Shown here: positions 6,966 to 24,042 of the stretch, piece after piece
How the letters are laid out: the number at the start of each line of letters is the position of its first letter
How positions within the stretch are numbered: the first letter of the stretch is position 1
Source: Acidobacteriota bacterium
GTDB lineage: Bacteria > Acidobacteriota > Blastocatellia > Pyrinomonadales > Pyrinomonadaceae
DNA length: 26,081 nt
Assembly (NCBI GenBank): GCA_020853255.1
Contig: JADYZI010000271.1
Span: 1 to 26,081, forward strand
Reading direction: 5' to 3'
Position numbers and translations under genes: made by a program
Notes under the pieces: model-generated
The model's database searches: none
Seen by the model: only the letters and a program-made list of their open reading frames with translations
Told to the model about the DNA's origin: nothing

Positions 6966-7625
6966 CTATGCCGACTGCGATTCGCCTTTTACCTTGTTTG
7001 GCTGCGGCGTAACCCGCAGATAAGGTTTTATTTCCTTCCAGCCGGCCGGGAATTTCTCTTTCGCGTCTTCGTTCGAAATGGACGGAACGATAATGCAGTC
7101 GTCGCCGTCTTTCCAATTTACCGGCGTTGCGACGCTGTAATTTGACGTAAGCTGCAGCGAATCGATCACTCGAAGCACTTCGTCAAAATTGCGGCCGGTA
7201 CTCGCCGGATAGGTGATCATCAGCTTGACCTTTTTATCCGGCCCGATGACGTAAACCGAGCGGACGGTCAGCGTGTCGTTCGCGTTCGGGTGGATCATAT
7301 CGTAAAGGTCCGAAACCTTCCGGTCCGAATCCGCGATCATCGGAAAGTTTACCGCCGTCCCTTGGGTTTCTTCGATATCCTTTTCCCAGCCGATATGCGA
7401 ATCGAGCGGATCAACGCTCAGCCCCATTACCTTGACATTCCTTTTGTCGAATTCAGGTTTGAGCTTTGCGGCCATGCCGAGTTCGGTCGTGCAGACAGGC
7501 GTGTAATCCTTCGGGTGCGAGAAAAGCACGCCCCAGTCGCTGCCTAGCCATTCGTGGAAATTTATCTCGCCCTGCGTAGTTTGAGCGGTGAAATTCGGTG
7601 CTTCGTCACCAAGTCTGATAGACAT
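6966..7625 (-). CDS. 1-Cys peroxiredoxin (Prx6 type)
   Basis: This 219-residue cytoplasmic enzyme reduces hydrogen peroxide and organic hydroperoxides. The active-site motif DYTPVCTTE places the peroxidatic Cys at residue 45, with the family Thr and Pro just before it. The long C-terminal domain (about 150-219, with TPVNWKDGDDCIIVPS) is typical of the Prx6 group, which usually lacks a resolving cysteine. There is a perfect AGGAGG nine bases before the ATG and an extended -10 (TGCTATACT) upstream, so it probably has its own promoter. It is a standard cysteine enzyme, useful as a contrast to the UGA-containing peroxiredoxin at 19.4-20.0 kb. Confidence 0.95.
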   Translation of the reverse strand: MSIRLGDEAPNFTAQTTQGEINFHEWLGSDWGVLFSHPKDYTPVCTTELGMAAKLKPEFDKRNVKVMGLSVDPLDSHIGWEKDIEETQGTAVNFPMIADSDRKVSDLYDMIHPNANDTLTVRSVYVIGPDKKVKLMITYPASTGRNFDEVLRVIDSLQLTSNYSVATPVNWKDGDDCIIVPSISNEDAKEKFPAGWKEIKPYLRVTPQPNKVKGESQSA

Positions 7626-16208: not shown

Positions 16209-16607
16209 ATGCTGAAACTGGAAATAGTAACACCCGAACGACGGGTAGTTGATGAAACGGTCGATTCGGTGACGGTCCCGACTCTTTCGGGCGAGGCCGG
16301 AATTCTGCCTAATCACGCTCCGCTTATCTCGGCCCTAAAGCCGGGTATTTTGAGCTTCACTAACAAGGGCACAACAGAACGGCTTGCCGTGGCTGGAGGC
16401 TTTGTCGAGGTCAGTTCGGATATGGTTTCTGTTTTGACGGATGTTGCGGAAACCACGGCCGATATCAACATCGAAGCCGCCAAAGCGGAACGAGAGGCCG
16501 CCGAAAAGGCCCTGGCCGCCAACTCAACAAAAGCGGTAGAAGAGACCGAGGCGTTTCGGGATGAGCTTGATCTCGCCAATGCGCGATTGCAGCTTGCGGG
16601 ACGTTGA
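16209..16607 (+). CDS. atpC: ATP synthase F1 subunit epsilon
   Basis: The 132-residue epsilon subunit is part of the central stalk and can inhibit ATP hydrolysis. MLKLEIVTPERRVVDETVDSV begins the N-terminal beta-sandwich. GEAGILPNHAPLISALKPG is the family signature, and the C-terminal helical hairpin (about 85-132) is rich in Ala, Glu and Lys. The ATG at 16209 gives the usual length. An upstream TTG at 16161, following AAGGAGAGG, would add 16 residues that do not look like epsilon, so I prefer 16209 even though its ribosome site is weak. It lies 66 bases after atpD and just before a strong terminator. Confidence 0.9.
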   Translation: MLKLEIVTPERRVVDETVDSVTVPTLSGEAGILPNHAPLISALKPGILSFTNKGTTERLAVAGGFVEVSSDMVSVLTDVAETTADINIEAAKAEREAAEKALAANSTKAVEETEAFRDELDLANARLQLAGR

Positions 16608-16630
16608 GACGTGAGAATATTTTGACCTGG

Positions 16631-16657
16631 GGCCGTCCGAAATGGGCGGCCTCTTTT
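16631..16657 (+). terminator. Intrinsic terminator of atpDC
   Basis: GGCCGTCC (16631-16638) pairs with GGGCGGCC (16644-16651), with one G-U pair and a 5-base loop, followed by TCTTTTC. It closes the atpDC unit and argues against the longer xseA frame starting at 16642, which would begin inside the terminator. Confidence 0.8.
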
Positions 16658-16731
16658 CGTGGTGGCGAGGCGGTGACTCACCATTTGCCTTAGTGCCCGA
16701 ATTCTGGGCGGTTATTGTACAATCTTCTCGG

Positions 16732-18123
16732 ATGAAAGAACCGTTGCTTGCAGCCTTGTTTGATGATCTTGCTCCGCGGGCCATGACCGTGTCGGAGCTG
16801 AACTCCGACATTAGAGGTGCACTTGAGCGCAGGTTTTCAAATGTTTGGGTCGAAGGCGAGATCGTCAATTTTCTGGAAGCGGCGTCGGGACACTGGTATT
16901 TTTCCCTTACTGACGGATATTCGTTCATCAAGGCGACATGCTTCAAGAACCAGAATTATCGCATCAGGTTTATGCCGTTTGACGGCCTGCAGATCCGATG
17001 CCGGGGACGGATCACTACCTATGAGAAACGGGGTGAGTACCAGTTAAGCGTTGAAGCGATCGAACCGGTTGGTGAAGGTGCACTAACGGTCGCATTTGAG
17101 CAGATCAAGGCAAGGCTGTTGCGTGAAGGCCTGTTTGATGAAGACCTGAAGCGACCCCTGCCGCCGTTTCCTCGCCGGGTTGGCGCGGTAACGTCGCCGG
17201 ACGGAGCGGCGCTTCATGACATCCTCAACGTTTTGGATCGTCGGGCGAGGTCTGTTGACATCGTCCTGATTCCAACCCAGGTCCAAGGCGAGACGGCCGG
17301 CCGCCAGATCGCTGAGGCGATAATGCTCGCCAACCGATTCTGTGAGGGCTGTCTTGAGCAAGACAGGATAGATGTGCTTATCGTTGGCCGCGGTGGTGGT
17401 TCGGCCGAAGATCTTTGGGCGTTCAATCAAGAACAGGTCGCCCGAGCGATACGCGGTTCCAATATCCCGATTATCTCCGCAGTTGGGCACGAGGTCGATT
17501 TTACGATCGCGGACATGGTTGCCGACCTTCGGGCACCGACGCCGTCCGCCGCCGCCGAGATCGTTGCGCAGAGTGAGGCCGAGGTGATGGGGCGAATCGG
17601 CCAGTTCTCTCGCGATCTCGTTCGCCAAATGGAGTACAAAATGCTCAGGGCACGCAGTGTTCTTCAGTCTGTGAAGATGGCCGCTGTTTTTACGGAGTTT
17701 CCCGGACGGCTCAGGGAAACGCGGCATCGCGTCGAGCGGTTGGCTACGGCTGCGCAGATAGCTGCCAACGCGAGCCTGGCGAAACGAGGCGAGGCCTTTG
17801 ATGCTGTGTCGGACCGCTTATCTCCCGCACGGCTTGCGGCGGCTGTGGCCGAAAACTCAAAGCGGCTTTCGCTCCTCAATTATCGGGCCGAATCCGCCGC
17901 TGCCGAAATGACGAGCGGCCGGAATACAGACCTTGAGAACGCTATGGCCCGGTTAAACGCTCTTTCGCCACTGGGTGTTTTGACCAGAGGTTACTCGATC
18001 ACGCAAAAAACGAGCGGCGAGATCGTGCGTGACCCGCATCAAATCACCGCGGGCGAGCCGATACGTATAACGCTCGCCGGCGGCAGGATCGACGCTGAAA
18101 TTACCCGCAAAAGTGGATCATAA
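16732..18123 (+). CDS. xseA: Exodeoxyribonuclease VII large subunit
   Basis: The 463-residue catalytic subunit of exonuclease VII degrades single-stranded DNA to oligonucleotides. The N-terminal OB fold (about 18-110) contains MTVSELNSDIRGALERRFSNVWVEGEI and HWYFSLTDG. The nuclease core has VTSPDGAALHDIL (153-165), RGGGSAEDLW (220-229) and GHEVDFTIAD (252-261). The long C-terminal helical region binds XseB, and the tail TRGYSITQ is conserved. The length matches E. coli XseA. I chose the ATG at 16732 (MKEPLLAALF) over the upstream in-frame start because the extra 30 residues overlap the atpC terminator. Confidence 0.95.
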   Translation: MKEPLLAALFDDLAPRAMTVSELNSDIRGALERRFSNVWVEGEIVNFLEAASGHWYFSLTDGYSFIKATCFKNQNYRIRFMPFDGLQIRCRGRITTYEKRGEYQLSVEAIEPVGEGALTVAFEQIKARLLREGLFDEDLKRPLPPFPRRVGAVTSPDGAALHDILNVLDRRARSVDIVLIPTQVQGETAGRQIAEAIMLANRFCEGCLEQDRIDVLIVGRGGGSAEDLWAFNQEQVARAIRGSNIPIISAVGHEVDFTIADMVADLRAPTPSAAAEIVAQSEAEVMGRIGQFSRDLVRQMEYKMLRARSVLQSVKMAAVFTEFPGRLRETRHRVERLATAAQIAANASLAKRGEAFDAVSDRLSPARLAAAVAENSKRLSLLNYRAESAAAEMTSGRNTDLENAMARLNALSPLGVLTRGYSITQKTSGEIVRDPHQITAGEPIRITLAGGRIDAEITRKSGS

Positions 18124-18134
18124 GGAAAAAGGAT

Positions 18135-18902
18135 TTGGGCAATAACGTTGTTGGGATCGAAAAACAGGCCGCGTCCACGAGAGAACTCGATATATTCAGC
18201 GCTCGCACTGCATCGCCGCTCAGGGAGCGAAGCACGCTGAGAACCGTCTTTATTACTGCGGCCGCAACCGTCCTTATCGTCAGCGTGATCGGCGGGGCGG
18301 GAGCATTTTTCTATTGGCGGCATTTGGAATCGACACCACAATACTCGCTTGCGTTGATCGTTGACGCCGCGAAACGGAATGATGATAAGACTGTCAATGA
18401 ACTCGTTGATATCGATTCGGTAGTCGATGATTTTCTACCGCAAATAACCGGAAAGGCGGTAGAACTATATGGACGCAACCTGCCACCGGAGACGCTCGAG
18501 CGAGTGGAACGGATAGCCGCACCGGTGATGCCCGCGGTCAAGCAGCGTGCGAGGGAAGAATTACCGGGTGCCATCCGGCAAAAGACCGAGGCCTTTGGCA
18601 ATGTGCCGTTTGCGGCGATGGTTGTCGGAGCTGACACTTACCTGGATATTAAGGTTGAAAATGAGCAGGCGATCGTAAAAAGCAAGATGCCTGAGCATGA
18701 TTTTGAGGTGCGTATGGTCCGGGCCGGCCAAAAATGGAAGATCGCCGGCCTGCACGATGATGTGCTTGCGACTCGTATTGCACAGCGTATCGGCCAGGAG
18801 GTGATCGCGATCGCCTCAAACGGCGGCGACTCAAAGCAAAGTCTGCTTGGGGTGAAAAATATTAATGAACTCCTTCGCCGCGCGGAAGAGATCTTTAGAT
18901 AA
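18135..18902 (+). CDS. DUF2939-like membrane-anchored protein
   Basis: This 255-residue protein lies between xseA and xseB. It has a polar N-terminus, one transmembrane segment (about 36-60) and an exported domain beginning STPQYSLALIVDAAKRNDDKTVNELVDIDSVVDDF. That region resembles DUF2939, a family of membrane-anchored proteins of unknown role (recognised from memory). The C-terminal part (165-215, with VVGADTYLDIKVENEQAIVKSKMPEHDFEVRMVRAGQKWKIAGL) is a beta-rich module ending in a WKIAGL strand. The start is TTG, 11 bases after the xseA stop, with AAGGA about 8 bases upstream; no in-frame ATG is near. The stop is 2 bases before xseB, so all three are co-transcribed. Nothing in the sequence ties it to DNA repair. 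Confidence 0.8.
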   Translation: MGNNVVGIEKQAASTRELDIFSARTASPLRERSTLRTVFITAAATVLIVSVIGGAGAFFYWRHLESTPQYSLALIVDAAKRNDDKTVNELVDIDSVVDDFLPQITGKAVELYGRNLPPETLERVERIAAPVMPAVKQRAREELPGAIRQKTEAFGNVPFAAMVVGADTYLDIKVENEQAIVKSKMPEHDFEVRMVRAGQKWKIAGLHDDVLATRIAQRIGQEVIAIASNGGDSKQSLLGVKNINELLRRAEEIFR

Positions 18903-18904
18903 AT

Positions 18905-19129
18905 ATGGCAAAGACTTTTGAAGCTTCGTTGAACGAATTGGAACGGATCGTTAAGCAGTTGGAGGACGGCGATCTGGCGCTTGAGGAAAGCTTGAAGCTC
19001 TTCGAGGATGGCGTCCGCCTGTCACGTGAATGCCGGGAACGGCTGACAAATGCTGAGCGACGGATAGAAGTGCTGATGAAGGGACCGGACGGAACGGTAA
19101 GTCTGGAACCAGTCGGGCCGGTGGAATGA
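18905..19129 (+). CDS. xseB: Exodeoxyribonuclease VII small subunit
   Basis: The 74-residue helical protein binds the XseA C-terminal helices to form exonuclease VII. The family block FEASLNELERIVKQLEDGDLALEESLKLFEDGVRL occupies residues 5-39, followed by CRERLTNAERRIEVL. It ends the xseA - DUF2939-like - xseB operon and converges with the zinc-ribbon gene 20 bases downstream. No terminator is seen in that gap. Confidence 0.96.
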   Translation: MAKTFEASLNELERIVKQLEDGDLALEESLKLFEDGVRLSRECRERLTNAERRIEVLMKGPDGTVSLEPVGPVE

Positions 19130-19149
19130 AATTCAATAAATTGGCTGAT

Positions 19150-19410
19150 CTACCGCGTTGCAACCATCAGGGCCGCGAGAGCGGCGAACATTACGACAAC
19201 CAGGCCGAGGATCACGGCGCCGACGGCAATTGAGTAGAGTACGATTCCGCTGGTATTATCCTTTCCGGATTTTCCATTGAATGCTTTACCGCACTGGGGA
19301 CATTTCACGTGCGTGAGGATCCTGGGCCCCAGAACTCCGCCCCACCAGGTGAAGCGGACCTTTTGGGCCTTGGTGCCGCCGCATTGCGGACACGGTGCAA
19401 AAGCGTTCAT
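19150..19410 (-). CDS. Small zinc-ribbon membrane protein (86 aa)
   Basis: The N-terminal half has two CPxCG knuckles, CPQCGG (Cys7, Cys10) and CPQCGK (Cys37, Cys40), which should bind one zinc as a zinc ribbon. A linker rich in Gly/Lys/Asp leads to a long hydrophobic segment (about 54-84), so the protein is membrane-anchored with the ribbon probably in the cytoplasm. Its ATG overlaps the stop of the selenocysteine peroxiredoxin by four bases (ATGA), so it should be translationally coupled and made in proportion to full read-through of that gene. I recognise no named family. A role in the same redox function is inference from the overlap only. Confidence 0.8.
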   Translation of the reverse strand: MNAFAPCPQCGGTKAQKVRFTWWGGVLGPRILTHVKCPQCGKAFNGKSGKDNTSGIVLYSIAVGAVILGLVVVMFAALAALMVATR

Positions 19411-19964
19411 GGCTTTGGAGGCGCGACGACCAGCTTCTTTTCAAGAAGACTGCATGTTTCCAACGTGCTGGTCGGATCGATCGCCACGGTGTCCACCACG
19501 ACCTGCTGTATTTTGCCTTCTTTATCCACCACAAATGTTGCCCGTCGACCGAACCCGCTTGCTTCATTGTACAGGCCGTAAAGCTTGGTCACGTTTCGGT
19601 CCCAATCGCTAAGCAGTTGAAAGGAAGTGACCCCGATCTTTTCTGCAAAGGCTTTGTTGGAAAAACGCGAATCCATGCTGATCCCGAAAACCTTTGTATT
19701 GGCTCCTTCGAATTTGGCTATACCAGCCTGGTAAGCCTGCAGTTCCTTCGTTCAGCCGCCTGTGAAGGCGAATACATAAAAGGCAAGAACGACGTTGCTT
19801 TTGCCGCGATGATCGCTGAGTTTGACCTTTTGGCCGGCGGTGTCACTCAATGTAAAATCGGGGGCCTCATCGCCCACTTTTAATTTAACGGGCGCCGGCG
19901 CCTGGGCCGAGACAGCGATACAGAAGAACGCCGCGATCATTGCCGCAAGAGAAATTCTTTTCAT
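19407..19964 (-). CDS. Exported selenocysteine-containing peroxiredoxin (AhpC/TSA family), in-frame UGA at codon 71
   Basis: One minus-strand frame of 185 residues is interrupted only by TGA at 19754-19752. Residues 1-22 (ending SAQA) are a signal peptide. Residues 28-70 (VGDEAPDFTLSDTAG, then NVVLAFYVFAFTGG) are an AhpC/TSA peroxiredoxin up to the active site. After the TGA the frame continues TKELQAYQAGIAKF, then VFGISMDSRFSNKAF, WDRNVTKLYGLYNEASGF and RRATFVVDKEG, all normal family blocks. The TGA replaces the peroxidatic Cys of the F-T-G-G-C-T motif, and a SECIS-like hairpin follows at the right distance. I therefore read it as Sec71. Cys171 is the only other Cys in the mature protein and might act as a resolving thiol. 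The ribosome site GGAG is 8 bases from the ATG. It should reduce peroxides outside the cytoplasm. A nonsense mutation of TGC/TGT is the alternative, but nothing else in the gene is damaged. Confidence 0.85.
19716..19737 (-). promoter_or_regulatory. Bacterial SECIS element (selenocysteine insertion hairpin)
   Basis: In the mRNA, 14 bases follow the UGA and then a hairpin forms: GGCU pairs with AGCC and UACCA pairs with UGGUA, giving nine base pairs with a single bulged U on the 3' side and the apical loop GGC. The loop starts 23 bases after the UGA. Bacterial SECIS elements recognised by SelB have a small apical loop with a G in its first two positions, about 16-37 bases from the UGA, and often a bulged U (the E. 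coli fdhF element has one, on the other strand of the stem). The fit is good, but the fold was worked out by eye. Confidence 0.75.
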
Positions 19965-19980
19965 AGCGGAATCTCCAATG

Positions 19981-20022
19981 AAAACATAAAAACCGCTGAT
20001 CCGACCGTTGTCAGATCAGCGG
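19981..20022 (-). terminator. Intrinsic terminator of the Bax-inhibitor-1 gene
   Basis: Read on the minus strand, CCGCTGATC and GATCAGCGG form a perfect 9-bp stem around a 12-base loop, followed directly by TTTTTATGTTTT. It lies between the BI-1 gene stop and the peroxiredoxin ribosome site, so the peroxiredoxin probably has its own promoter or depends on read-through. Confidence 0.85.
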
Positions 20023-20045
20023 CATTTAGCTTAGCGCAGTTTAGG

Positions 20046-20750
20046 TCAATCACGTGAACTGAAAATGCTCAAAATATACCAGAACAGCAAAGCGATACTG
20101 GCAAACAGCGTCAGCGAAGCAGCGACGTGCTGGTTCGTATTGTAGCGGTGCATCACATTTGACGTATTGTACAGGATCGCGGTACCAGCAAATGCTACCA
20201 TCACGAACGCGAATACACTGCCGAGCGAAAAGCCGAACAAGAGGCTTGCGGCGATAAACCCAAGGGCCGCAAAACCGCCAATCGCCAGAATCGGGCCCAG
20301 GAAGCTGAAGTCGGTCTTTGTCAGAAAAACAGTCGCCGTGATGCCCAAGAAAAGGCCTAACGTGACGATTCCTGCCTTTGGTATCACAGTGGCGTCAGAA
20401 TAGACCGCGGCAATGAATATAAGCGGTACAAATATGACAGCCTCAGCCACAACGTATAGTCCAAGCCCTAGATACTGCATTGTAGACGACGTTTGGGAAT
20501 TGGCCCACCAGTTGGCTAGGAATGAAACGCCCATGAACGCTCCCAATACGATAAGCCACGAAAATCGCCCGCCAAGCATTGTCACCGCGATATCGTCCGC
20601 GAAACCTGACATAAAGATCGCAAATTCGATCCCAACAAAGGCAAGGACCGCCGCGGCGAGTAGAAGATATGTCTTGCGGATGAACCGCGCCCTTTCAGTA
20701 GGCGCTGCCTCAGTCGCCGATGCTCCGAACGATGTTGTAAAGTTTTCCAT
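20046..20750 (-). CDS. Bax inhibitor-1 / YccA family membrane protein
   Basis: The 234-residue protein has seven hydrophobic segments starting near residue 27. The N-terminal tail ERARFIRKTYLLLAAAVLAFVGIEF, the VTLGLFLGITATVFLTKTDFSFLG region and the C-terminal AILYNTSNVMHRYNTNQHVAASLTLFASIALLFWYIL are typical of bacterial BI-1/YccA (TMBIM) proteins, which form pH-sensitive calcium leak channels in the one structurally studied homologue (BsYetJ). The usual YDTS element reads YNTS here. It is transcribed alone, with a strong terminator after it. No clear ribosome site precedes the ATG, which lies just after ATCTAT. Confidence 0.9.
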   Translation of the reverse strand: MENFTTSFGASATEAAPTERARFIRKTYLLLAAAVLAFVGIEFAIFMSGFADDIAVTMLGGRFSWLIVLGAFMGVSFLANWWANSQTSSTMQYLGLGLYVVAEAVIFVPLIFIAAVYSDATVIPKAGIVTLGLFLGITATVFLTKTDFSFLGPILAIGGFAALGFIAASLLFGFSLGSVFAFVMVAFAGTAILYNTSNVMHRYNTNQHVAASLTLFASIALLFWYILSIFSSRD

Positions 20751-21013
20751 ATAGATAACAGTGACTTAGATGGCCCGCTCGCGGCAGATGTTTGCAACAA
20801 AACTATACGAGAGATAGCCGCCGCCCGTTCCAACCATACTGACACTTGTCGAACAGTATACACCAGTACACAAGAAAATCGGCCCTGGACCTTGCAGATC
20901 TCGGAGCCTATTCAAAGTAGAAGTTTTTCGCAGCGGTTCGTGTCCTCTTTTCGTATTGTTTCGTGGGGGCATGGTAGAAAACCGGACCGCCGCGAAATGC
21001 GGGCAAAGAACAC
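20751..21013. other. Intergenic region with degraded CACGAA repeat
   Basis: This gap of about 280 bp lies between BI-1 and the GGDEF-EAL gene, both on the minus strand. It contains GCGGTTCGTGTCCTCTTTTC near 20935 and AGAACACGAAAAACCC near 21008, remnants of the TTCGTG/CACGAA hairpin family, plus unassigned sequence that should hold the BI-1 promoter. No ORF with recognisable content is seen. Confidence 0.5.
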
Positions 21014-21034
21014 GAAAAACCCGCACCATCGGGT
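21014..21034 (-). terminator. Terminator after the GGDEF-EAL gene
   Basis: On the minus strand, ACCCG - ATGGTG - CGGGT is followed by TTTTCG, immediately after the stop codon. The stem is only five pairs, so it is a modest terminator. Confidence 0.55.
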
Positions 21035-23313
21035 CAGTGCAGAGTTACGCCTTCACTGATCGATCGACTGTCGTTGGGTTGATCTTCGCCTTCAGTACCT
21101 GATTCGCTTGGCAGCCATTGCGAACGCTTGTATAAAAGCTCTTCGGTTTCCTCGCGGCCCTTGGGCTTTGCAAGTAGATACCCCTGGCCGTAATCACAGC
21201 CAAGATTCTGTAGGACCGCGAGTTGCGACCCGGTCTCGATCCCTTCCGCAATGACCCGCATTTTTAGATTCTTTGCCAGCGAGATAACGGTTTGGAGCAC
21301 CTCAGAATCTTCACCATGCTCGCCTACCCGGTTAACGAAGGAGCGGTCGATCTTTAACGTATCGAACGGCAGTCGGTGCAGTACACTCAGGCTTGAATAT
21401 CCCGTGCCGAAATCGTCGATGCTCAACTGGACACCGATCTCCTTTAGCCGGTTAAGAATATGTATCGTATGTTCGGCATTCTCCATCGCAGTGCTCTCGG
21501 TTATCTCGAGCTTCAATGTGCGGGCGGCAACCCGAGAGGACTGCAACGCGCCGACTACGTCATCGATTAAGATGTCCTTTGTCAAATGTTTTCCTGAGAT
21601 GTTGACGCTCACCACCAGATCACGATATTCAGGGCCGATCTTCTGCCATTCTGCCAACTGCCGGCATGACTCGTGAAGTATCCAGATCGTGATCGGAAGA
21701 ATGAGGCCTGAGACCTCGGCGATCGGAATAAAACGGAAAGGCGGGATCATGCCCATCTTCGGGTGATGCCAGCGAAGCAATGCCTCGAATCCGATCAGCC
21801 GTCCGTCCGTTAGCGCAACGATCGGCTGGTAATGGAGACACATCTCGTTTCTCTCGACAGCATGGCGAAGGTCCATCTCAAGCCGAATACGCTCAAGAAA
21901 TCGGTCGCGCATCTCGCGATTGAATATGGCTGGCCCGTCGTTCTTCTCCTTTGCGAAATGCATTGCAATGTCGGCGTCGCGAAGAATCTCTTCCGGCGTG
22001 TCATATTCCGGATCGGATGGGGCAATGCCGATATTTAGGTCAATCGTGATGCTGTGGCCGCTAAGCGAAAAAGGCTGCGTAAGACTTTTGTAGATCCTTC
22101 GTGCGACTTTTTGCGCCTTGTCGGCGTTTGGCAGATCGCAGAGGATGATCGCGAATTCGTCTCCGCCAATGCGGGCAACGATATCGCCGGGGTTCAGCAT
22201 TCGGACAAACCGTTTGGCGGCCACGACAAGTACCTTGTCGCCGATCGTATGGCCCAGCGAGTCGTTGATATCCTTAAAGCCTCGAATATCGAGGAACAAT
22301 ACTTGGAAAGCGACCGATCTGTCCGCTTTGCTTTCCTCTATCATTCGCCGAAGCACATCTCCAAAATTCTTTCTGTTCGCAAGCCCGGTCAGCGAATCAT
22401 GCAATGCGGCGTGCTGAAAATCGCGCTCACTTTTACGAAGGGCAATATTCGCCTGTTCTTCCTTGGACAGGGCCAGTTGGAGCTGTGATGCATTGCTTTC
22501 AGCCTCAAGCCTGCGCTCACGCTCAGTTTCGGCCTTGGCACGCTCGGCCTCCTCGACCTGAGCAAAGGCGACGTTCACCTCGCCGATCGACTGACGGTAA
22601 GTGAGAAATGCGACGCCGATAGCGATCAGAGCGATCGCCGTCGAGACAATATCGCCATAGTTAATGACCTTAAAGATCACGCCAGCCAAACCGGCACCGA
22701 CGATATGCGTCATCGAACTCGAGAAGCAATCCGTCAGCCAGGTTCGCCAAAGCGTTGTTCCATTACTGAGGGAGCGATAAACGGCCGCAAAGAATGAAGT
22801 GACGAGAAACTGCGACAAGGCAAGTGTGCCGAGCAGCGTGATCAGGTGTTGACTACGAGTCGGTTCGAAACCGTGGCCGGCCGCGGCAACGAGAAAAAGC
22901 AGTATTAGGTAGGTGCAGCCGGTTGACACTGCGCTGACCGCGACATTCCACGCGGTCATTACGTTATCAAGTCTGAATCCGGAACGCCGAAGATAAAGAC
23001 AGCTGGATAACATTTCAAGGGCCGCAACAATGATCGCGGCCTCGCCGCCATACAGCAGAAAGGCGAGCAGAATAAGCGAATCAGCAAAGCTGATAGCAAA
23101 ATTGCTTCGCGGCAGCCGGAGCGTCATCCGCGGGGCAACCAGTATCGAGAAGAAAAGAAGCGAAAGCGACCCTGCAGTTATAGCCTCGCGCGGAAGGTTG
23201 ACAATAGCATAAACGAACGCAAGCGCACCGAAGACGATCACCAACCCTTTGAAAGCGTTATGGGACCGTTGCCGGTTAAGAACCTGTCGTTCGTCGATAA
23301 CTTCTGTAGACAT
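21034..23313 (-). CDS. Membrane-bound GGDEF-EAL cyclic-di-GMP enzyme
   Basis: The protein has 759 residues. The N-terminal 240 residues hold about seven hydrophobic segments forming a membrane sensor domain. A charged coiled-coil (about 245-298) links it to the catalytic part. The GGDEF domain begins HDSLTGLANRKNF (305-317) and has an intact active site, RIGGDEFAI (381-389); the position of the inhibitory RxxD site reads NPGD, so product inhibition through that site is unlikely. The EAL domain has FEALLRW (508-514), ITES (603-606) and DDFGTGYSS (632-640), the residues of an active phosphodiesterase. Both making and breaking c-di-GMP are therefore possible. It lies alone, with a terminator after its stop. 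The signal sensed is unknown. Confidence 0.93.
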   Translation of the reverse strand: MSTEVIDERQVLNRQRSHNAFKGLVIVFGALAFVYAIVNLPREAITAGSLSLLFFSILVAPRMTLRLPRSNFAISFADSLILLAFLLYGGEAAIIVAALEMLSSCLYLRRSGFRLDNVMTAWNVAVSAVSTGCTYLILLFLVAAAGHGFEPTRSQHLITLLGTLALSQFLVTSFFAAVYRSLSNGTTLWRTWLTDCFSSSMTHIVGAGLAGVIFKVINYGDIVSTAIALIAIGVAFLTYRQSIGEVNVAFAQVEEAERAKAETERERRLEAESNASQLQLALSKEEQANIALRKSERDFQHAALHDSLTGLANRKNFGDVLRRMIEESKADRSVAFQVLFLDIRGFKDINDSLGHTIGDKVLVVAAKRFVRMLNPGDIVARIGGDEFAIILCDLPNADKAQKVARRIYKSLTQPFSLSGHSITIDLNIGIAPSDPEYDTPEEILRDADIAMHFAKEKNDGPAIFNREMRDRFLERIRLEMDLRHAVERNEMCLHYQPIVALTDGRLIGFEALLRWHHPKMGMIPPFRFIPIAEVSGLILPITIWILHESCRQLAEWQKIGPEYRDLVVSVNISGKHLTKDILIDDVVGALQSSRVAARTLKLEITESTAMENAEHTIHILNRLKEIGVQLSIDDFGTGYSSLSVLHRLPFDTLKIDRSFVNRVGEHGEDSEVLQTVISLAKNLKMRVIAEGIETGSQLAVLQNLGCDYGQGYLLAKPKGREETEELLYKRSQWLPSESGTEGEDQPNDSRSISEGVTLH

Positions 23314-23709
23314 TCAGCGCGGTTGGTTGCAATGCAAGTGAGGGAGGTCCGGTCGCCAAACAAAGTTTAACATTGGTGAGGTCGAAAATACCAGTAAAAA
23401 AATCGGTTGATGATTGCCGGGTGGATACCAACTAACCAGATTTACGATGTATATTTCCTATACAGGTCTCTAAGTTAAGCAAATAATAGGATTAGATGAT
23501 CGCGGGCTATAATGTGTTAACGAAATATACACTTTGTTGATAAGTACCCATTCCTAACGAAACAACAGGATGTGCCTTGCTAAGTTGTTCATAGACAGCA
23601 TTTACGGCGTTCGGGTTGGCTCATGTGTTTTGTGGCACGGCGGTTGTAATAGTGAATGCCGGAAGGAAGCGAAAGGCTTCAAATCAAAACTGAAATCTGG
23701 AGAAGAAAA
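23314..23709. other. 396-bp AT-rich divergent intergenic region
   Basis: This region separates the GGDEF-EAL gene (-) from the repeat-protein gene (+). It is visibly richer in A and T than its surroundings. A perfect TATAAT occurs on the plus strand at 23508-23513 without a convincing -35 box, and a sigma-54-like site lies at 23633. Near 23670 GAAGC-GAAAG-GCTTC could form a small hairpin in the leader. No gene is seen. Confidence 0.5.
23633..23648 (+). promoter_or_regulatory. Possible sigma-54 promoter of the GIIVGN-repeat gene
   Basis: TGGCACG-GCGG-TTGTA matches the -24 element of the sigma-54 consensus exactly and has the right spacing, but the -12 element reads TTGT instead of TTGC, a change at a highly conserved base. 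Transcription would start near 23660, about 50 bases before the ATG. It is weaker than the site at 12494. Confidence 0.35.
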
Positions 23710-24042
23710 ATGAAAAACATCAAAAACATCGTCGCAGCCATCCTCGTAGTCGCAACCCTCAGCGTCAGCACAGTTTTCGCCGGTGACGGCATCATTGTCG
23801 GCAATCGTGACGGCATCATCGTCGGCAATCGTGACGGGATCATCGTCGGCAACGCTACCGGAACGCCCTGCACGGGAGACGGTGGGATCATCGTTGGCAA
23901 CCGTGACGGGATCATCGTCGGCAACGTTGTCGCCGCTCTTGGTGGGATCATCGTCGGCAACTTCGCAGGCGGCATCATCGTAGGTAACGTAGTCGCAGCG
24001 GACGGCGGAACCTGCCGCGACGGCATGCTCATCAGCGACTAG
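23710..24042 (+). CDS. Secreted GIIVGN-repeat protein (110 aa)
   Basis: The ATG at 23710 follows CTGGAGAAG. Residues 1-24 (MKNIKNIVAAILVVATLSVSTVFA) form a clear Sec signal peptide. The mature part is almost entirely built from seven copies of GIIVGN, mostly as (R)DGIIVGN, spaced by 8 residues in the first three copies and by longer Gly/Ala-rich linkers later. One Cys lies in the linker TPCTGDG and one near the end (TCRDGML), so one disulphide could form. Regular short hydrophobic/Gly/Asn repeats like this suggest a beta-solenoid or amyloid-like fibre (inference). I know no named family. The longer frame from 23656 would start with a non-signal sequence and is unlikely. It is followed by a strong terminator. 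Confidence 0.8.
   Translation: MKNIKNIVAAILVVATLSVSTVFAGDGIIVGNRDGIIVGNRDGIIVGNATGTPCTGDGGIIVGNRDGIIVGNVVAALGGIIVGNFAGGIIVGNVVAADGGTCRDGMLISD

Follow-up and report, generated by a model that had tools for sequence, protein, structure and literature searches.

A predicted exported selenocysteine peroxiredoxin encoded across an in-frame TGA in an Acidobacteriota bacterium

The window analysed here is a stretch of 26,081 nucleotides from an Acidobacteriota bacterium. Its minus strand carries a peroxiredoxin gene with one in-frame TGA, together with the following features.

19407..19964, minus strand: predicted selenocysteine (Sec) peroxiredoxin gene, apparently exported (reading frame, Pfam domain, dN/dS, codon-71 column)
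19902..19964, minus strand: likely signal peptide, residues 1–21 (MKRISLAAMIAAFFCIAVSAQ; read by eye, N-terminal hydropathy)
19752..19754, minus strand: in-frame TGA, codon 71, at the peroxidatic position (AFTGG-U-TKE; TGA, TGC or TGT in 148/148 matches)
19716..19737, minus strand: bSECIS-like hairpin GGCUUACCA-GGC-UGGUAUAGCC with its apical loop 23 nt past the TGA (fold, covariation, synonymous shuffles, model fit)
19452..19454, minus strand: codon of the conserved C-terminal Cys171, a candidate resolving cysteine (Cys column in 101/105 clade rows)
19150..19410, minus strand: downstream ORF with an ATGA overlap, its 86 residues including a hydrophobic stretch and a pair of CPxCG motifs (ORF list; sub-threshold Pfam matches only)

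The joined frame, translated from the window, runs on the minus strand from an ATG at 19964 to a terminal TGA at 19409–19407 and comprises 185 codons plus the stop; besides the TGA at 19754–19752 it contains no further stop or frameshift. The Pfam AhpC-TSA domain spans the TGA (residues 30–154) with a score of 124.6 bits, above the gathering cut-off of 26, which places the product among the peroxiredoxins. The ordinary ORF list holds only an 89-residue fragment beginning at an internal ATG at 19676. The sequence-only reading, which had described a single 185-residue AhpC/TSA frame split by one TGA and had expected annotation pipelines to mis-call it, is thus upheld on both points. The window contains 32 frame pairs that are each interrupted by a single TGA; the domain scan covered the peroxiredoxin pair and the other 31 were judged from the list, by our reading of which the peroxiredoxin is the sole pair with halves that form one known domain, so that its split frame is not put down to chance. 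The ORF at 19150..19410 is possibly translated in coupling with the peroxiredoxin.

The protein contains Cys15 (within the putative signal peptide), Sec71 as read here, Cys171 and no other Cys or Sec residue. Its AlphaFold2 model (pLDDT 90.1, pTM 0.83) ends in a helix (residues 165–180) that carries Cys171. The top Foldseek matches are the peroxiredoxins Bcp1 and Bcp4 of Sulfolobus and the 1-Cys peroxiredoxin AhpE of Mycobacterium tuberculosis, whose structures 3drn, 3hjp, 5id2 and 1xxu are the closest solved folds (TM-score by target 0.84–0.91, sequence identity 32–36%). These proteins also rank near the top by sequence, where the best chain is that of the peroxiredoxin-like protein 2ywn. AhpE, Bcp1 and Bcp4 have a cysteine at the active site, in contrast to residue 71 of the window protein, and a further difference is the Cys171-bearing helix with which the window model ends. 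The score against the BCP/PrxQ model NF006960 is 80.6 bits, below its cut-off of 140, and there is no Cys at position +5.

Genome G143 is colinear with window positions 16399–23009 at a DNA identity of 91.4–92.5% and contains the same TGA. Comparison with G143 gives a dN/dS of 0.07 for the part preceding the TGA, or 0.036 when the first 24 residues are left out, and of 0.027 for the part following it. With G132 the two values are 0.077 and 0.029; with G109, dS reaches saturation in the preceding part and the ratio for the following part is 0.067. Such low ratios on each side indicate that both halves are held as protein. The colinear genome, the loci of relatives and the class matches described below also bear out an earlier guess that the DNA is acidobacterial.

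A protein search returned 862 relatives at E ≤ 0.001, and among the best 120 of these many close relatives are 104–111 residues long and begin immediately past the TGA site. Two of them, P0004 and P0035, are 99.1% and 100% identical to the C-terminal parts of loci L096 and L001, respectively, which indicates that the 104–111-residue entries are products cut at the UGA. The same entries are what would be seen if UGA mainly terminated translation and an internal TTG or ATG start past it gave a separate C-terminal polypeptide. That piece would have neither the peroxidatic residue nor the N-terminal half of the fold, and constraint extends to the part before the TGA as well; we consider two separate products very improbable. 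Partial termination at UGA when selenium is low is likely for any selenoprotein and is compatible with selenocysteine insertion. If the gene does encode a selenoprotein, many of the short entries, for example P0004 ('redoxin domain-containing protein'), would be truncated selenoproteins.

The bSECIS model, as set out in the available text of a 2026 review (PMC13188914), has a loop of 3–9 nt that shows a G within the first two nucleotides, a stem of 4–16 bp, a distance of 16–37 nt from the UGA and an MFE of −7.5 or lower. The window hairpin fits it with a GGC loop, 9 bp, 23 nt and −8.9 kcal/mol. As coded here, the model is matched by 60 of 87 Sec rows (the window included) and missed by the remaining 27, and it is matched by two of nine Cys rows and by 16 of 120 synonymous-codon shuffles.

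Covariation was scored on an alignment of 49 Sec rows (48 distinct). Stem cells were paired in 82.4% of cases versus 73.1% after shuffling, cells with a double change numbered 36 versus 11.8, pairs with a double change six versus 3.8, and the covariation score was 0.220 versus 0.091; the fifth measure, further pair types, showed no excess (11 versus 11.0), and kinship alone may raise scores of this kind. Stems slid along the alignment gave lower values for paired cells, double-change cells and covariation, and not always for pair types. The wobble base of Tyr78 faces the second base of codon 81, and the two form UA in 31 rows and CG in 13 and are unpaired in four (n = 48), the silent choice of TAT or TAC at Tyr78 accompanying Asp or Gly at codon 81. 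The pair between the wobble bases of codons 77 and 82 is GC in 22 rows, AU, CG and UA in four each, UG in two and unpaired in 12. Rules for bSECIS elements could be tested on this naturally occurring set, in which a hairpin shows covariation from one codon position to another.

With the protein sequence held fixed, 88 Sec rows form on average 6.97 of nine template pairs (4.77 after synonymous shuffling), 56 of the rows falling in the top 5%; the nine Cys rows form 4.22 versus 3.70, none of them in the top 5%. The MFE lies within the best 5% of synonymous shuffles for 44/88 Sec rows and 3/9 Cys rows. Comparison with three loci (L095, L096 and L097) revealed no synonymous change in the seven codons of the hairpin, versus synonymous changes in 38/146, 58/141 and 59/129 of the other comparable codons, respectively. 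RNAalifold predicted no consensus structure for the 49-row alignment, perhaps owing to rows without the stem, and the window hairpin on its own showed no extra stability over dinucleotide shuffles (z of +0.35, −1.10 and −0.68).

Near relative G143 contains a tRNA-Sec with anticodon TCA, selB, a selA that is partial as the contig end cuts the gene, and a selD that itself has a single TGA. The subfamily (query P0001, E ≤ 1e-39) was found in 71 of 162 Blastocatellia genomes; in the whole set tRNA-Sec was detected in 145, selA in 145 and selB (E ≤ 1e-75) in 131. Among the 71 gene-bearing genomes, 66 have a tRNA-Sec match and 69 a selA match, leaving five and two, respectively, without one in assemblies for which completeness is not given. 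Eleven Blastocatellia genomes lack both, and one of these, G145, carries the peroxiredoxin together with selB and has no tRNA-Sec, selA or selD match. The association of the gene with the Sec trait is weak (Fisher p 0.024, ignoring kinship). Eight Blastocatellia genomes (G080, G081, G108, G123, G125, G126, G128 and G138) have neither tRNA-Sec, selA nor selB and no P0001 match at E ≤ 1e-25, which suggests either that some lineages have lost the Sec trait or that the assemblies are incomplete. G148 also lacks tRNA-Sec, selA and selB, yet has a selD with one TGA.

The first loci came from 38 genomes, 34 reached through a TGA match and four through a Cys match. Because the tRNA-Sec model is unspecific at E ≤ 0.001 (a match in 14/14 control genomes, above the cut-off in five; at E ≤ 1e-9 a match in 3/14), we set our own line at 56 bits for this set. 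At that line tRNA-Sec is absent from G009, G018 and G029 (TGA) and from G023 and G024 (Cys); SelA is absent from G019 (TGA), G023 and G024, and SelB above its cut-off from G001, G005 and G010 (TGA), G023 and G024. Of the 12 tRNA-Sec stretches fetched first, ARAGORN confirmed 11 (the exception being G004), and it also confirmed both of two later ones. On the window itself, Rfam at the gathering threshold and ARAGORN gave no match.

Selenoprotein systems are known to insert another residue in certain conditions, and the UGA could in principle be read through with, for example, cysteine. The tRNA-Sec, SelA and SelB of G143, its SelD gene with a TGA of its own and the maintained bSECIS-like hairpin all argue for selenocysteine, and we regard a different residue as highly unlikely.

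Codon 71 was read at the DNA level in the 148 matches within the fetched loci that cover it, and is TGA in 102, TGC in 37 and TGT in nine; no other codon occurs. This agrees with two statements made from the sequence, that the TGA falls on the catalytic residue and that column 71 should be Cys or Sec throughout. The GTDB genome scan gave at least 80 loci, and further loci came from class searches. The one scan pattern that covered codon 71 spelled it as Trp or Cys and never as TGA, so that any bias would act against TGA. Among the Blastocatellia subfamily matches listed at E ≤ 1e-39, every one that spans codon 71 contains a single internal TGA; some also show an ordinary stop close to the match end. 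The position of the TGA was confirmed on DNA in the 30 loci fetched in the Blastocatellia search.

A TGA derived from TGC or TGT by nonsense mutation, in a pseudogene, or by assembly error would leave a gene that is dead or misread, and it is true that ordinary ORF calls split the gene and that a one-base change would strike precisely the Cys of the homologues. Extra stops do occur in a few relatives, namely one TGA and three TAA in a more distant match (G094:C21) and one TGA and two TAG in the tandem second copy of G218 (L138). An identical TGA across many assemblies, purifying selection before and after it and the single internal TGA of the listed Blastocatellia rows leave damage with a negligible likelihood; the earlier claim that the frame is not decaying holds for those rows, with these few exceptions.

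Reading of UGA as tryptophan (code 4) in the host can be set aside with equal firmness: W is printed at the site in 25 of 121 proteins (the best 120 matches plus the window entry), and in P0073 likewise, but eight of the 18 window genes on our gene list end in TGA, the peroxiredoxin among them, the same 18 genes contain 60 TGG codons, all 46 non-TGA matches are TGC or TGT and none is TGG, and Trp would abolish the active-site residue. The W entries are best read as the work of gene callers that apply code 4 to short contigs. C is printed in 40 proteins, including the window's own entry, in which it stands for TGA.

The TGA is best read as selenocysteine and not as decay, a reading that draws on the codon-71 column, the Sec machinery of G143, purifying selection on both sides and the hairpin that fits the bSECIS model. 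On this sequence evidence the gene product is almost certainly a secreted enzyme that destroys peroxides and has selenocysteine at the active site. In the mechanism that we propose with high confidence for this thioredoxin-fold peroxidase, the bSECIS hairpin 23 nt downstream would direct decoding of UGA codon 71 as Sec by SelB and tRNA-Sec, and the protein would be exported to the periplasm. Sec71 would there reduce peroxide and become a selenenic acid, which would most likely condense with Cys171, either in the same chain or in that of a partner, and form a selenylsulfide; a periplasmic thiol reductant would then reset the cycle.

Of the 118 rows placed in a tree, 105 lie on one side of a branch with SH-aLRT 97 (quick method, unrooted). 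This clade comprises 87 Sec and 18 Cys rows, and 17 of the 18 Cys rows fall within one sub-branch of 23, a nesting which, in an unrooted tree, suggests change in the direction from Sec to Cys. A strongly hydrophobic N-terminus is found in 81 of the 83 clade rows testable by length (six are too short), versus two of 20 testable rows outside the clade (39 too short), and the column of Cys171 is Cys in 101 of the 105 clade rows. The Terriglobia Cys orthologues (for example L007 and L154), mostly AAFTGG-C-TKE, belong to the same clade and share the C-terminal Cys; they differ in having TGC or TGT in place of TGA, in keeping the Pro at −7 (17 of 18 clade Cys rows) and in that two of nine match the bSECIS model.

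That Pro belongs to the motif PxxxTxxU, as the family motif is stated in the available text of PMC13188914. In 81 of the 87 clade Sec rows V, I, L or T stands in its place; the window protein has V64 seven residues before the Sec and retains T68 and U71. On the starred branches, loss of the Pro and the Sec/Cys state could be compared in three independent pairs (all rows) or two (clade), with a sign-test median p of 1; given so few independent changes, the loss is not tied to the Sec/Cys state.

PrxU is reportedly a selenocysteine peroxiredoxin of Eubacterium acidaminophilum, said to have been described by Sohling in 2001. The window protein resembles it in its AhpC/TSA fold, its T-x-x-U motif and the place of the UGA, which falls on the peroxidatic residue. 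It scores 77.7 bits against NCBIfam NF040737, the cut-off of which is 270, and so falls outside that equivalog. Unlike PrxU, the subfamily occurs in Acidobacteriota and has an apparent signal peptide, a conserved C-terminal Cys and mostly no motif Pro. The likening to PrxU made in the sequence-only reading thus stands in so far as Sec-peroxiredoxins are an established kind, and fails for strict PrxU membership.

As far as the available texts of these sources go, the Prx (TxxU) selenoprotein family had 12 members in 2006 (PMC1794560) and 91 members in 78 organisms in 2016 (PMC5029168), and a broad definition combines PF00578 with TxxU (PMC13188914). The window gene lies inside this definition, sharing the TxxU active site and the existence of Cys homologues in other bacteria, and differs in the motif Pro described above. 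The available text of the 2006 survey counts four selenoproteins of three families in Acidobacteriota (PMC1794560), and that of another paper three selenoproteins in Occallatibacter riparius (PMC12013277); some of these may belong to the exported subfamily. The words 'Acidobacteri', 'periplasm' and 'signal peptide' are absent from the main text of PMC13188914, and a literature search, with supplements and most subscription papers outside its scope, found no exported acidobacterial Sec-peroxiredoxin subfamily. To judge from the available parts of the sources, Sec-peroxiredoxins with TxxU (PMC1794560, PMC5029168, PMC13188914) and acidobacterial use of Sec are known, and the exported acidobacterial subfamily appears to be new. 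The early survey, in its available part, linked bacterial use of Sec to low oxygen (PMC1794560).

The subfamily is widespread. In the class of G007, 191 of 399 genomes have a match at E ≤ 1e-35; at least nine listed rows lack the TGA, and all nine are TGC or TGT on DNA. Together with its presence in 71 of 162 Blastocatellia genomes, this qualifies the novelty claimed earlier: the exported acidobacterial form stands, and it is a common one. Acidobacteriota are abundant in soils, and a conserved, apparently exported Sec-peroxidase in such a phylum would widen the place of selenium in peroxide defence. We suggest tentatively, as a picture somewhat short of probable, that exported Sec-peroxiredoxins are a long-standing and widespread peroxide defence of Acidobacteriota, a phylum with near-general use of Sec in the class examined. 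On this picture Sec would perhaps be ancestral in the subfamily and Cys derived, most Sec forms would have exchanged the otherwise conserved active-site Pro for an aliphatic residue, and truncated or code-4 'Trp' entries would have kept the family hidden.

In genome G007 the exported peroxiredoxin is present in both forms, with Cys (TGC, L007) and with Sec (TGA, L173), and the Sec copy has the hairpin motif. Among the 30 loci from the search of the class of G007, at least ten (L136, L138, L141, L144, L147, L148, L150, L151, L152 and L156) carry tandem pairs of TGA-type peroxiredoxins about 500–700 bases apart, and the second copies form branches of their own in the tree. In the database protein P0045 a Cys-containing peroxiredoxin domain is followed by another peroxiredoxin domain, and the sequence stops at ...AFTGG, exactly at the point expected for a second Sec codon. 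A second Sec-peroxiredoxin group, with a motif like PLxWTPV-U-xxQMPxY, keeps the Pro and apparently lacks a signal peptide; with TGA it occurs in Acidobacteriota (L029, L032, L036, L045, L046, L048, L049 and L065 among the loci) and in Chloroflexi, Schinkia and Sulfobacillus records, and Rokubacteria records contain a related PLDWTPG-U form.

Directly upstream of the peroxiredoxin, at window positions 20046–20750, lies a gene for a Bax1-I (BI-1/YccA-like) membrane protein, and Bax1-I-matching DNA adjoins the peroxiredoxin in several relatives (for example L002, L108, L109 and L118). A hairpin followed by a T run is located between the two genes (19988–20022); in L095 the hairpin is kept and the T run is not. 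Elsewhere in the window, positions 6966–7625 encode a second peroxiredoxin, with an ordinary Cys and of the 1-Cys/Prx6-like type (NF009668, 214.3 bits versus a cut-off of 211), and positions 23656–24042 a short secreted-looking ORF of repeated GIIVGN units with no Pfam match.
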